The position numbers were made by a program, and so were the translations under genes. DNA of 64,000 bases. It comes from Carnobacterium divergens DSM 20623 (GTDB lineage: Bacteria; Bacillota; Bacilli; Lactobacillales; Carnobacteriaceae). The stretch spans positions 806,001 to 870,000 of the forward strand of contig NZ_JQLO01000001.1 in the NCBI RefSeq assembly GCF_000744255.1, read 5' to 3'. The first letter of the stretch is position 1, and every line of letters begins with the position of its first letter. The notes under the pieces were generated by a model. That model searched no databases. It was not told the DNA's origin and saw only the letters and a list, made by a program, of their open reading frames with translations. Shown here piece by piece: positions 33,032-41,940 of the stretch.

Positions 33032-33411
33032 ATGGCAGATAGTTTAGTGATGATTGATTTACAAAAAGGCTTGCATTCTCCAACAAATAAATAGCGATTC
33101 ATGGTGCTTAATGGAGGAGCTGGACCATCAGCCAACAGATTATTACCTATTGAAAACCCACGCCAACTCTTTTTTCCAAACAAACCTACAAGCAACGTTA
33201 ACTGAATTAGGAGTAGAATCAATTGAATTTTGTGGGGCGCCAACAGAATATTGCGTAGATACGACTATTCGAGTTGCCCACAGTTTAGGCCTATCACTGC
33301 TGGATGAAAAGTGACTTGCATACGACAGTGGACAGTCCATTATTAACAGCGCCAGTCATCATCGCTCATCACGAAGCAATTTGGGAAAATCGTTTTTTAA
33401 ACTTACTATAA
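33032..33411 (+). pseudogene. Decayed isochorismatase-family (cysteine hydrolase) gene
   Basis: Three fragments of one family protein lie in three frames. Fragment 1 (from ATG 33032 after GAGAGGG) reads MADSLVMIDLQKGLH, the usual N-terminus with catalytic Asp, then stops at 33092. Fragment 2 (about 33088-33314) carries SDSWCLMEELDHQP, the Lys region and GAPTEYCVDTT with the catalytic Cys. Fragment 3 (about 33313-33411) carries DLHTTVDSPLLTAPVIIAHH and the C-terminus. The segment between fragments 1 and 2 (roughly 40-50 residues in homologues) is missing, so there has been an internal deletion plus a second frameshift. It is very unlikely to give an active enzyme. Confidence 0.82.
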
Positions 33412-34469: not shown

Positions 34470-35390
34470 ATGAAAAAAATTGAACGCATTCTCTCAATCA
34501 TTGTATTGCTGTTAGAAAATGAAGTCATACCAGCTACACAACTAGCTACGCGCTTCAATGTAACCAAGCGCACCATTTTTAGAGATATTGAAACAATTGA
34601 AATGGCAGGCTTTCCGATTGTTTCATTTACTGGGAGAAAGGGTGGCTATTCTTTATTAAATTCATTTAAACTTCGTACATATACCTATACAGATGCTGAA
34701 AAACAGGATATTTTAAGTGCTTTGCAAATGAAAGAACGATTTATCGAACCAACAGACAAACAACATACAATTAAAGAAAAAATTCATCTAATGCAATTGC
34801 ATCCATCAAATGAAGTCACGAACCCGCTGATTTCGTTTGCATCTCCAACACTCCATCGTGCTGAGATTGAAGTGGAGACAAAGCAAAAAAATACCCAATT
34901 AACCAATGCCTTACACAACTATTTGAAGCTGACAATTGAGTATGTCAGCAACCAAGGCGAAGGAACTGAACGAACAATCCATCCTTATGAATTGATGCTG
35001 CTAAATGGCAGTTGGTACGTGCATGCGTATTGTGAAAAAAGAGCAGCATTTAGACACTTTAAAGTGACAAGAATACGGAAAATGACTATTTTGGATCAAC
35101 ACTTTGACCTACAAATACCACCTACAAAAAAAGAACTTCTCACAGGTGAGTGGGTCAAATTATATTTTAAAAAGGATGAGCTAGGAAAACTTTACGATTA
35201 TTACACCCAAGATGAAATTCGAGTAGTAGATAATCACGTTGAGGTAACTTTTTTTTCAGAATATCAAAAGCATTTAATTCCATTTTTACTTATGTTTGGA
35301 AATGGAGTACAAGTGATAACACCACTATCTTTAAAAAAACAACATCAAGCAGCAATCATTCACTTACAAAAAGCGTATTCAAGTAATTGA
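34470..35390 (+). CDS. YafY-type transcriptional regulator (HTH + WYL domain)
   Basis: The 306-residue protein begins with a winged helix-turn-helix of the HTH_11/DeoR type (residues about 1-55: ERILSIIVLLLENE, ATQLATRFNVTKRTIFRDIETIEMAGFPI), followed by GRKGGYSLL. The middle carries a WYL-like domain (HPYELMLLNGSWYVHAYCEKR) that binds small ligands or nucleic acid ends in other members. A C-terminal WCX-like extension follows. It may regulate itself or the following DUF1801 gene, 83 bases downstream; the target is not visible. A small GATGACA/TGTCATC hairpin follows at 35393. Confidence 0.87.
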   Translation: MKKIERILSIIVLLLENEVIPATQLATRFNVTKRTIFRDIETIEMAGFPIVSFTGRKGGYSLLNSFKLRTYTYTDAEKQDILSALQMKERFIEPTDKQHTIKEKIHLMQLHPSNEVTNPLISFASPTLHRAEIEVETKQKNTQLTNALHNYLKLTIEYVSNQGEGTERTIHPYELMLLNGSWYVHAYCEKRAAFRHFKVTRIRKMTILDQHFDLQIPPTKKELLTGEWVKLYFKKDELGKLYDYYTQDEIRVVDNHVEVTFFSEYQKHLIPFLLMFGNGVQVITPLSLKKQHQAAIIHLQKAYSSN

Positions 35391-35473
35391 ACGATGACAG
35401 CTACTTGTCATCATTTGTGGGTTACATTGATATTGAAAAGAAATTATTTAATTAGAAAAGGGGAAAAATACCT

Positions 35474-35872
35474 ATGAAACCAATTAGAAATATAGAGGTT
35501 GCTGCTGTTTTTAAAAAGTATCCAAAAATTTATCGTACACCATTATTAGAAATAAGGCAGCTTATTTTTGATACAGCTGATGGTATAGCAGAAGTTGGCG
35601 AAATTGAAGAGAGTTTAAAATGGAACCAACCGAGCTACGCAACCAATCAAACAAAATCAGGCACGTCGATTCGAATTGATCGATTTGGTGAACATCAGAT
35701 AGCACTTTTTGTTCATTGCCAAACAACCTTAATTGAAGAGTTCAGACCTTTATTTAACGGTACGTTTGAATTTTCTAAAAATCGGGGAATCCTCCTTGAT
35801 CCTCAAAAAGAACTTCCTATTCAAGAATTGGCCTTTTGTATTGAAAAAGCATTGACGTACCATCTAGTTTGA
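35474..35872 (+). CDS. DUF1801 domain protein
   Basis: The 132 residues match the DUF1801 (YdhG/YjhB-like) family: FKKYPKIYRTPLLEIRQLIFDTA, GEIEESLKWNQPSYA, and a cytochrome-c-free beta core with RIDRFGEHQIALFVHCQT. The function of the family is not settled; some members were proposed as frataxin-like iron chaperones on structural grounds. No secretion signal. It follows the WYL regulator and has its own GAAAAGGGG site. Confidence 0.8.
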   Translation: MKPIRNIEVAAVFKKYPKIYRTPLLEIRQLIFDTADGIAEVGEIEESLKWNQPSYATNQTKSGTSIRIDRFGEHQIALFVHCQTTLIEEFRPLFNGTFEFSKNRGILLDPQKELPIQELAFCIEKALTYHLV

Positions 35873-35910
35873 ACTTAAAGAAACGGACAATGGATGAATT
35901 AGTTAAATGT

Positions 35911-35940
35911 AAAAAAAGAAACCCCCACTAATTATGGAGG
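35911..35940 (-). terminator. Terminator-like hairpin after the interrupted secreted-protein gene (minus strand)
   Basis: On the minus strand CCTCCA (35940-35935) pairs with TGGGGG (35927-35922) allowing one U-G, followed by TTTC and seven T. It lies just beyond the extended stop at 35963, which supports that point as the original gene end. Confidence 0.55.
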
Positions 35941-35962
35941 CTAGAAAAAATTATTTTTTGTA

Positions 35963-36496
35963 TTATTCGAAGTTAAAATAAGGATTCCATGTCATGATGT
36001 CTAAATAGTCATCATTTGCATCTCCTGTTATAGAAGTATTTTCTACAACTTTTGAGTTATAAGCAACTCTATAAGTGACTGTTCCCCCAGACATATTGGT
36101 AAGGCTAATATTGATTGTATTAAAACCAAGCCGATGCTTCGGATCTAAATTTTTTTAAAACTGTGATGATACGTAACCTACAGTACCTACATATGGTGGC
36201 ACAAAATCTTGTCCATCATCATATCTTATTGTCTTAACTACTGCTTCAGTGGTATCTTCTTGTGTTTTTACTTGGAAGGCTAAAAGAGTAGAATGTTTTT
36301 TGTCTTTAAATAAGCTTTTTTTTAAATTATAGGATTCTCCATTTTCAAGAGTAACCATTTTAACATCGGTTGTGATTCTAGTACTAGGGTGCAATGCGTC
36401 CCTTTCAATCGTTGTTTCTTGAGCAGTTGCTGTGCGGGTAAATACGAATGCTGAAAATAAACTTAATCCAATAATTAATAATTTAATTTTTTTCAT
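35963..36496 (-). pseudogene. Small secreted protein gene interrupted by an in-frame TAA
   Basis: From ATG 36496, preceded by AAAGGGG, the frame encodes a signal peptide (MKKIKLLIIGLSLFSAFVF, cleavage probably near ATA-Q) and about 85 further residues, then TAA at 36157-36155. The same frame then stays open for 63 codons (KNLDPKHRLGFNTINISL... to NPYFNFE) ending at 35963, just before a minus-strand terminator. The composition of the second part looks protein-like, rich in Asn, Thr, Val and Tyr. The simplest reading is a nonsense mutation in a roughly 177-residue secreted protein; a truncated 113-residue product may still be made. I do not recognise the family. Confidence 0.7.
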
Positions 36497-36518
36497 TTCA
36501 AAATCCCCTTTTATATTA

Positions 36519-36547
36519 ATCATATACCTATAGTTATTTATTGTTAA
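36519..36547 (-). promoter_or_regulatory. Promoter of the interrupted secreted-protein gene
   Basis: Minus strand: -35 TTAACA (36547-36542), 17-base spacer, -10 TATGAT (36524-36519). The -35 box lies inside the large palindrome at 36541-36580. Confidence 0.6.
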
Positions 36548-36580
36548 AATAAAAAAACGTATATTTTTTTATTTTAACAA
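36541..36580. repeat. Perfect 17-bp inverted repeat
   Basis: TTGTTAAAATAAAAAAA (36541-36557), six-base spacer CGTATA, then its exact reverse complement (36564-36580). It overlaps the -35 of the leftward promoter, so it could be an operator; as RNA it could also act as a bidirectional terminator. Confidence 0.9.
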
Positions 36581-36719
36581 TCTAATTTTTTTAACAGCTT
36601 TAATCCCTAAAAAAATACTTACAAATAAAGTATAAACCAATATCTTTAAGGGAATGAAGGGAAAAAATAACTTAAAATTCAAAGAAATAAACAGAACCCT
36701 AGTTTTTATCCAAGGTCGG

Positions 36720-36728
36720 TGCTATAAT
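36720..36728 (+). promoter_or_regulatory. Extended -10 promoter for the 114-residue gene
   Basis: TGC followed by TATAAT (36723-36728), about 57 bases before the start codon; no good -35 is seen, which extended -10 promoters tolerate. Confidence 0.55.
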
Positions 36729-36784
36729 AGTTTTAAATTCTTTATGAAAGAACAGCTTTTTATGAATGAAGGGGTCTAGTAAAA

Positions 36785-37129
36785 ATGAGAAATTATTATT
36801 TTTTGGAATACGGTAGTTCAAAATGTGTTTCAGTGGTAGAAAATGACTTAGAAGAACGCTTTAAATTAGAGTTCAATAAGCATGGCGATCACCTATTAGG
36901 AAGCTGTATTAATTATTCAGGAAAGTACGCTGACCAAATGTTGATTAAACAGAATTTATACGGCGAAGAATGGCAATATCCTGAACATAAAGAGTATGAA
37001 ACCATTGTTGCAATCAGTTTCGTTGAAGGACGAGACAAAGAAAAAATGAACAAGATTGAAACGATTAAAAAATGGTTTACTGAATTAGAGCATGTACAAC
37101 TTTTAAAAGAAGAAACACTTAAAGGTTAA
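36785..37129 (+). CDS. Hypothetical protein (114 residues)
   Basis: I do not recognise this protein. It is soluble, acidic to neutral, with no signal peptide: MRNYYFLEYGSSKCVSVVEN at the front, two cysteines, several aromatic residues and a C-terminal charged helix (EGRDKEKMNKIETIKKWFTELEHV). It has its own extended -10 promoter, a plausible GAAGGGG site about nine bases upstream, and a terminator directly after, so it is a stand-alone gene. The clean expression signals support it being real. Confidence 0.75.
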   Translation: MRNYYFLEYGSSKCVSVVENDLEERFKLEFNKHGDHLLGSCINYSGKYADQMLIKQNLYGEEWQYPEHKEYETIVAISFVEGRDKEKMNKIETIKKWFTELEHVQLLKEETLKG

Positions 37130-37140
37130 AAATAGAGAGT

Positions 37141-37176
37141 GAACATTTCGTTATTTTAACAAATGTTCCTTTTTTT
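37141..37176 (+). terminator. Intrinsic terminator after the 114-residue gene
   Basis: GAACATTT (37141-37148) pairs with AAATGTTC (37161-37168) around a 12-base loop, followed by CTTTTTTT. Confidence 0.85.
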
Positions 37177-37209
37177 CTTAAATAATTGACTATAAAAAGG
37201 AGTTTAACA

Positions 37210-37629
37210 ATGACTGCTATCCAAGCATTTGAAGAATTACTTAGAGCAAAACAAATCCCATTAGTTAAATCAACAGAAAATTCCAATGGGACTTCTTATA
37301 GTGGGAGTTTTCAAGCAAGCCCTGAAAATGAAATTCTTTTTGACATTGTCTTCAAAGAAGCGACAAAACAAACGGATGTTACAATCACATATCATCGATT
37401 AATAGCGTGTTCTAATGAAGACAATCGTCTTCAACTAGTAGCGTTAATCAATCAATTAAACCAAGAAAAAACCTCTTATTATCGTTTAGTTTTAACAAAT
37501 GAGGGAGAAGTTTCTTTATTATTTGAAGGTCGAACAGGAGAAGAGATTTTACCACTTTATGAAATTTTATTAGTAGGTTCTTCGCTATTAAGTGATTTGA
37601 TGAGGGAATTAAAATTCGGCTTAGTTTAG
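37210..37629 (+). CDS. Hypothetical protein, possibly YbjN-like (139 residues)
   Basis: A soluble protein starting MTAIQAFEELLRAKQIPLV with alternating short strands (FDIVFKEA, DVTITYHRL) and helices (LQLVALINQLNQEK), then VLTNEGEVSLLFEGR and a helical tail. This layout resembles the YbjN / class I chaperone-like fold, but the match is by feel only. ATG 37210 is chosen after AAAGGAG; a longer in-frame start at 37186 precedes that site. It is followed 13 bases later by the Ohr-type gene, so the two are likely co-transcribed. Confidence 0.7.
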   Translation: MTAIQAFEELLRAKQIPLVKSTENSNGTSYSGSFQASPENEILFDIVFKEATKQTDVTITYHRLIACSNEDNRLQLVALINQLNQEKTSYYRLVLTNEGEVSLLFEGRTGEEILPLYEILLVGSSLLSDLMRELKFGLV

Positions 37630-37642
37630 GGGGCGCATCTCA

Positions 37643-38065
37643 GTGAATCAAAACGAAAAAAGTATTTATCAAACAACAGCCATTAATGAAACTGGAGTTG
37701 CTGGTGTTGCGTATATTGAAGGCAGTGAGGGCTGGAAAGTAAACGTGTCTAGTCCAGTCAGTAAAGAGCCTGGGACGAACCCAGAAGAATTGCTAGCATT
37801 GGCATATAGCACCTGTTTGAATGCAACGGTTGAAACAATTTTAAAAGAGCAACAACAGCCCAAAAAAAGCTCAGTCAAAGTAACGATTGCACTGATTCCT
37901 GAAACAATCGGGTATCATTTTAATGTAACAGCAAAAGTATTTATTGAATCCCTTAGTCAACCTGAAATTCAAGAAATAATTGAATTAGCCAATCAGCGAT
38001 GCCCCATTTCTAAACTGATGAAGGGCAGTCAAACAGTCACTGTAATGGCCACAACGACTCCATAA
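37643..38065 (+). CDS. OsmC/Ohr family peroxiredoxin
   Basis: The 140 residues match the organic hydroperoxide resistance subfamily: the first redox Cys lies in LLALAYSTCLNATVE and the second in ANQRCPISKLM, with GTNPEELL ahead. These thiol enzymes reduce lipid and organic hydroperoxides, usually with lipoyl proteins as donor. The start appears to be GTG 37643 after GGGGGC. No OhrR regulator gene is adjacent. A perfect bidirectional terminator separates it from yajQ. Confidence 0.88.
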   Translation: MNQNEKSIYQTTAINETGVAGVAYIEGSEGWKVNVSSPVSKEPGTNPEELLALAYSTCLNATVETILKEQQQPKKSSVKVTIALIPETIGYHFNVTAKVFIESLSQPEIQEIIELANQRCPISKLMKGSQTVTVMATTTP

Positions 38066-38105
38066 AAATAGCACCTAAATCCTTTAACGGTTTAGGTGCT
38101 ATTTT
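38065..38105. terminator. Bidirectional intrinsic terminator between ohr-type gene and yajQ
   Basis: Perfect 15-bp stem AAAATAGCACCTAAA / TTTAGGTGCTATTTT with an 11-base loop; T/A runs on both sides allow use by both convergent genes. Confidence 0.92.
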
Positions 38106-41893: not shown

Positions 41894-41940
41894 AAAAAAC
41901 TCTTTCACTAACACTTAGTTGTTAGTGAAAGAGTTTTTTT
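41894..41940 (+). terminator. Intrinsic terminator after the YitW-type gene
   Basis: Perfect 19-bp stem AAAAAACTCTTTCACTAAC / GTTAGTGAAAGAGTTTTTT with an eight-base loop. Confidence 0.94.

Follow-up and report, generated by a model that had tools for sequence, protein, structure and literature searches.

A perfect palindrome overlaps a predicted promoter between divergent genes

Within the window, the 64,000-nucleotide stretch of Carnobacterium divergens DSM 20623 DNA analysed here, a long perfect inverted repeat lies between two divergent genes. On the minus strand, a gene for a secreted protein (36155 to 36496) starts at 36496 and encodes 113 amino acids before a premature in-frame stop, beyond which the frame is open to about 35966. 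On the plus strand, a gene for a protein of 114 amino acids (36785 to 37129) starts at 36785, and this gene was matched in 3 of the 3 genus genomes compared. No family in Pfam or NCBIfam matched the secreted protein above cut-off, nor did any PDB entry up to an E-value of 1, and the 114-residue protein matched no known protein family above cut-off. For comparison with the window's own genome (G000), we used two other genomes of the same genus, G001 and G002, with one genome per species.

The initial annotation placed the palindrome at 36541 to 36580 with 17-bp arms. The sequence, coordinates and exact complementarity were correct, except that the outermost pair had been missed. The full repeat spans 36540 to 36581, with 18-bp arms (left, 36540 to 36557, ATTGTTAAAATAAAAAAA; right, 36564 to 36581, TTTTTTTATTTTAACAAT) that pair at 18 of 18 positions around the loop CGTATA (36558 to 36563). 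Each arm has a single G/C pair, and the A7 and T7 tracts of the palindrome sit at the loop side rather than at the outer ends. Four bases past the right arm, the plus strand carries a further run of seven T residues (36586 to 36592). An Rfam search of 35800 to 37300 gave no match up to an E-value of 1, and the accessible parts of the matches listed by a literature search name the site nowhere, which is no proof of its absence from print.

The left arm contains the −35 hexamer of a promoter predicted for the secreted-protein gene. As the initial annotation had described, TTAACA on the minus strand (36542 to 36547) is separated by a 17-bp spacer from TATGAT (36519 to 36524), a combination with 10 of 12 consensus matches. 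Promoter-like matches of such quality were not above chance in number, with 15 found between 34000 and 39000 against 17.8 expected, and 3 found around the secreted gene of G002 against 4.9 expected. The aligned promoter in G002, TTGACA-17-TATATT, has 11 of 12 consensus matches. We infer that the promoter functions. Transcription of the secreted gene is predicted to start at about 36512, which puts the centre of the dyad near −48 and the palindrome outside the gene's own mRNA. On the other side of the intergenic region, the sequence TATAAT (36723 to 36728, plus strand), the likely −10 hexamer of the 114-residue gene, is identical in G002.

The frame remaining after the premature stop is similar to the intact 177-aa protein of G002. 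Overall, the secreted gene has evolved under purifying selection (dN/dS 0.12), and the break therefore looks recent, or else may be a sequencing error. Downstream of the gene, a hairpin at 35920 to 35942 has 9 pairs compared with 11 in its clean counterpart in G002, with 4 G-C pairs in both.

The palindrome is not a standard terminator

The perfect pairing of the palindrome is far beyond chance. Dinucleotide shuffling of the 288-bp intergenic region never gave arms of at least 17 bp with a loop of at most 20 in 5000 trials. Shuffling only the local 100 bp (86% AT) likewise gave an 18-bp arm in 0 of 5000 trials, the largest arm being 17 bp, and perfect arms of at least 17 bp occurred in none of 40 shuffles of the whole window, whereas the real window has 6. 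Terminators in this genome use long perfect repeats, which are common for that reason, and we asked how the palindrome compares with the others through a census covering 464 kb of the same chromosome (the window and 20 stretches of 20 kb spaced evenly along it), with genes taken from simple ORF calls made for this analysis. Of the 51 perfect repeats with arms of at least 14 bp in this sample, tandem genes flank 24 and convergent genes another 24, one is inside an ORF, one is at an edge, and a single one, the palindrome at 36540 to 36581, lies between divergent genes. Among the other 50 repeats, 49 are within 43 bp of the 3′ end of a gene and one is at 264 bp. The palindrome also stands apart in base composition, with a single G/C in its arm where all the others have 2 to 8; when arms down to 12 bp are counted, one tandem-gene repeat likewise has just one. 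With this lower limit, divergent genes flank 1 of 73 perfect repeats in the G000 sample, 5 of 79 in G002 (including one for which the right-hand gene call lies beyond a stretch of Ns) and 4 of 63 in G001, with 400 kb sampled in each of the latter two. A perfect repeat in a divergent setting thus has precedents within the genus.

The initial annotation had noted that no gene ends immediately nearby and that a terminator role was not obvious. The flanking genes are indeed divergent, and the census, the G/C content and the fold energy all make a standard terminator unlikely. The predicted fold of the palindrome is −13.7 kcal/mol on the plus strand and −15.7 kcal/mol on the minus strand, compared with −26.2 and −22 kcal/mol for two nearby hairpins that adjoin gene ends. 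A terminator scan that requires three G-C pairs called neither the palindrome in G000 nor the corresponding dyad in G002 (see below). With one G/C pair per arm, a T7 run four bases off on the plus strand and no such run on the minus strand, the palindrome lacks the features of an intrinsic terminator. Intrinsic (Rho-independent) terminators of this genome, such as those at 41894 to 41939 and 38065 to 38105, do resemble it in having perfect or nearly perfect long arms and a short loop; however, their A runs are outside, their G/C pairs inside, and they stand at gene ends. Together, the divergent context, low G/C content, weak fold and inner A/T runs mean that the standard terminator reading fails.

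A related species has an imperfect dyad at the corresponding position

The secreted gene has a narrow distribution. Matches were found in 3 of 395 genomes of the order, G000 included; G002 is the one other genome in which the gene is convincingly present, and the third match is weak, partial and contains a stop. G001 had no match to the secreted gene, and two scans of a species-level collection, which may omit G000 or very near genomes, confirmed no relative of it.

The palindrome sits in a part of the chromosome where G000 and G002 are highly diverged. In 60-base windows, identity is mostly 85 to 100% on either side of a block at about 34540 to 36690, in which it is mostly 60 to 93%, with gapped windows down to 30%; the palindrome falls within the least conserved parts of the block (60 to 72% windows). 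Synonymous divergence (dS) in the block is 0.64 for a WYL regulator, 1.07 for a DUF1801 protein and 0.74 for the secreted protein, compared with 0.05 for the 114-residue gene to the right and 0.38 in both genes that follow it. It is possible that the block, with the WYL regulator, the DUF1801 protein, the secreted gene and the palindrome, is a replaced segment. The intergenic region is 288 bp in the window and 306 bp in G002 and, as it is not longer than its counterpart, bears no sign of an insertion. Elsewhere in the alignment, the window has about 160 bp more than the aligned G002 region at approximately 33092 to 33273, within an ORF (33054 to 33314) that we take to be isochorismatase-like.

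Outside the −35 block, the sequence of the palindrome is not conserved in G002, although the promoter hexamers are kept. The initial annotation had held that a lack of conservation in related strains would count against a regulatory site, and in the one related species compared this lack is largely what we found for the sequence; a weaker dyad is, however, present there. At the homologous place, G002 has the imperfect dyad GTCAAGAGTTTTTGAAAACAA / TTGTTTTTAAAAAGTTGAC, followed directly by T8 on the plus strand. With the test centred no more than 5 bp from the position where the window palindrome aligns, 4 of 1500 full shuffles scored as well as the G002 dyad, as did 7 of 1500 in which the promoter was kept fixed. 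For the RNA fold of the G002 dyad, the shuffles that did as well were 8 of 1000 on the plus strand and 16 of 1000 on the minus strand. Not every test favors this dyad: a simple score, unconstrained and taken across the full intergenic region of G002, was reached by 17 of 100 shuffles, and of 36 real divergent intergenic regions in G000, with the palindrome's own counted, 5 hold a dyad somewhere that is at least as good as that of G002. The outer ends of the two dyads (GTTAA/TTAAC in the window, GTCAA/TTGAC in G002) are distinguished by a single substituted pair, in which pairing is kept, but are offset in spacing by 4 bp. Being one pair in two sequences, this paired change is only a hint.

No regulon emerges from searches for further copies

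The initial annotation suggested that the palindrome might be an operator and that other copies be sought near promoters. Under this explanation, a dimeric or tetrameric regulator on the dyad would cover the −35 hexamer and repress (or, acting from upstream, activate) the secreted gene, and perhaps the divergent gene. The position is as an operator would have it, since the −35 of a promoter whose hexamers are conserved in G002 lies within the left arm. The palindrome is also the strongest dyad of the 36 divergent intergenic regions sampled, G002 has a dyad at the same place, and a gene for the WYL/HTH regulator is nearby (34470 to 35390). BrxR, another WYL regulator, binds inverted repeats near a promoter according to the available part of one report (PMC9122601).

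The copies themselves did not turn up. Searching the 2.62-Mb genome with the outer 10-bp half-sites TTGTTAAAAT..ATTTTAACAA, with gaps of 8 to 32 and no mismatches, we found the palindrome alone. The shorter pattern TTGTTAA..TTAACAA (gap 2 to 31) occurs twice more in G000, and G002 has sites nearly identical to these; we rejected both G000 sites as operators, as each is in a terminator by position and sequence. For this pattern, a reversed-pattern control exceeded the real count in all three genomes (6 vs 3 in G000, 6 vs 3 in G002 and 20 vs 5 in G001). Matches to one arm with up to two mismatches numbered 63 vs 35 for the reversed control in G000, 47 vs 34 in G002 and 73 vs 62 in G001, counts from which we read these matches as A/T-rich background.

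A palindrome in G001 shares the 10-bp half-sites GTTAAAATAA with the window palindrome at nearly equal spacing. Across the order, this half-site pair is present in 4 of 395 genomes, including G000 and G001, and the reversed control in 1 genome. The two further matches are a terminator stem and a hairpin between tandem genes, and we therefore rejected an operator family shared with G001. The G001 palindrome (L099, 10503 to 10537) reads GTTAAAATAACAAT-ACATGTC-ATTGTTATTTTAAC and, lying between genes that are presumably TetR-like and aminopeptidase-like, looks like an ordinary operator.

As far as these sequence patterns can tell, there is no regulon, though a regulator with the palindrome as its single target may be conceivable. 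The operator explanation is further weakened by the comparison between species. Rather than conserved half-sites, the window and this one relative share the −35 block and short outer GTYAA/TTRAC ends whose spacing differs by 4 bp. Over its first 60 residues, which include the HTH, the WYL regulator differs at one place between the two species, yet the supposed operator is not kept. The BrxR sites, as given in the part of the report available (PMC9122601), are also built differently, with 11-bp arms and a 5-bp spacer, unlike the 18-bp arms and 6-nt loop found here, and the window palindrome has no half-site conserved between the two species. We retain from the initial annotation the overlap with the −35 of a promoter, which is conserved in a relative, and regard the operator, now lacking a second site and conserved arms, as rather unlikely while still the main rival to the explanation developed below, with a plus-strand hairpin next.

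An imperfect dyad may have been made perfect by template switching

We tentatively favor, without holding it to be probable outright, an origin in which an ancestral imperfect dyad was made perfect in the lineage of the window, most simply by template switching, with the perfection itself probably serving no dedicated function. We propose that an imperfect dyad upstream of, and including, the −35 hexamer would predate the split of the two species, as would the promoter itself. In the lineage of the window, this dyad would have become the perfect palindrome with 18-bp arms, and the simplest route would be a template switch during replication that copied one arm onto the other (quasipalindrome correction). 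Any effect would then be secondary and fall on the adjacent promoter, through the A/T tracts or the potential to form a hairpin or cruciform.

One line of support is the dyad of G002, an imperfect repeat at the equivalent position in a relative and the kind of substrate on which template switching would be expected to act. Also in favor are the pairing at 18 of 18 positions, the absence of a second site with these half-sites from the genome, the divergence of the arms outside the −35 block, in a region whose synonymous sites have diverged strongly as well, and an intergenic region that is no longer than that of G002. Imperfect repeats in E. coli become perfect, or more perfect, through template switching according to the accessible text of one study (PMC7202029), and a second, likewise available in part, describes perfect stems that can arise in one template-switch event (PMC8794818). 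As in those mutations, an imperfect repeat would here have become a perfect one with a short loop, and function is unneeded; however, the palindrome comes without a parent sequence close enough to reveal the copying step. Its arms are too different from those of G002 to tell which served as template. The two dyads and the kept promoter hexamers are seen in the sequences themselves, whereas we infer the template switch, the ancestral dyad and the absence of function. The premature stop in the downstream gene suggests that selection on the secreted-gene promoter may be relaxed. Counting against a lack of function, the purifying selection on the secreted gene means that its regulation may matter, and the presence of dyads at equivalent positions in two highly diverged species could equally mean selection for a dyad or hairpin.

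A further rival is a plus-strand hairpin that ends or insulates plus-strand RNA, from antisense leakage or divergent starts, ahead of the 114-residue gene. Both species have the hairpin with a plus-strand T run (directly following in G002, after four bases here), and a structure kept while its sequence changes is typical of hairpins. In the plus direction, there is a 9 of 12 promoter-like match at 36490 to 36517; the G002 scan, however, has no matching promoter in that direction. The stem, with its one G-C pair, folds more weakly than the two local gene-end hairpins, and in neither species does the scan report a terminator here. The other 50 repeats are all richer in G/C, with 49 of them at gene ends, and no plus-strand gene ends for about 670 bp upstream. 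We consider this hairpin improbable. Pseudo-symmetrical bidirectional promoters give divergent transcription in E. coli, as stated in the available part of one report (PMC12825309), and we speculate that a hairpin at this site could matter for such transcription.

UP elements are A/T-rich and positioned upstream of the −35 hexamer. The A7/T7 tracts, and the nearly pure A/T sequence just upstream of the −35, could be such an element or curved A/T-tract DNA, with the mirror symmetry being incidental, and G002 has A/T tracts too. This explanation neither needs nor explains perfect pairing at 18 of 18 positions, and we judge it very improbable. Least credible to us is a cruciform or hairpin element, with the −35 in one arm, whose pairing is maintained across species although its sequence changes. 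Either cruciform extrusion under negative supercoiling from the two divergent genes or a plus-strand RNA hairpin would then switch or insulate the secreted promoter.

If the palindrome is a template-switch product, it would be a clean natural case of an imperfect repeat turned perfect on a promoter hexamer, and it would show that such events can mimic operators when a sequence is read. Were the dyad instead kept for structure, control of divergent promoters by a hairpin or cruciform could be tested on it. At present its practical weight is small, as this is a single site of unconserved sequence beside a gene with a premature stop.

A comparable palindrome in these two genomes is at 384401 to 384437 of G000 (C1), which corresponds to 18638 to 18674 of L095 in G002. 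It too has perfect arms with one G/C (15 bp, around a 7-nt loop) and lies between divergent genes, presumably an sstT-like transporter gene and a GtrA-like gene. Unlike the window palindrome, it is identical in both species, and it has promoter-like hexamers on both strands.
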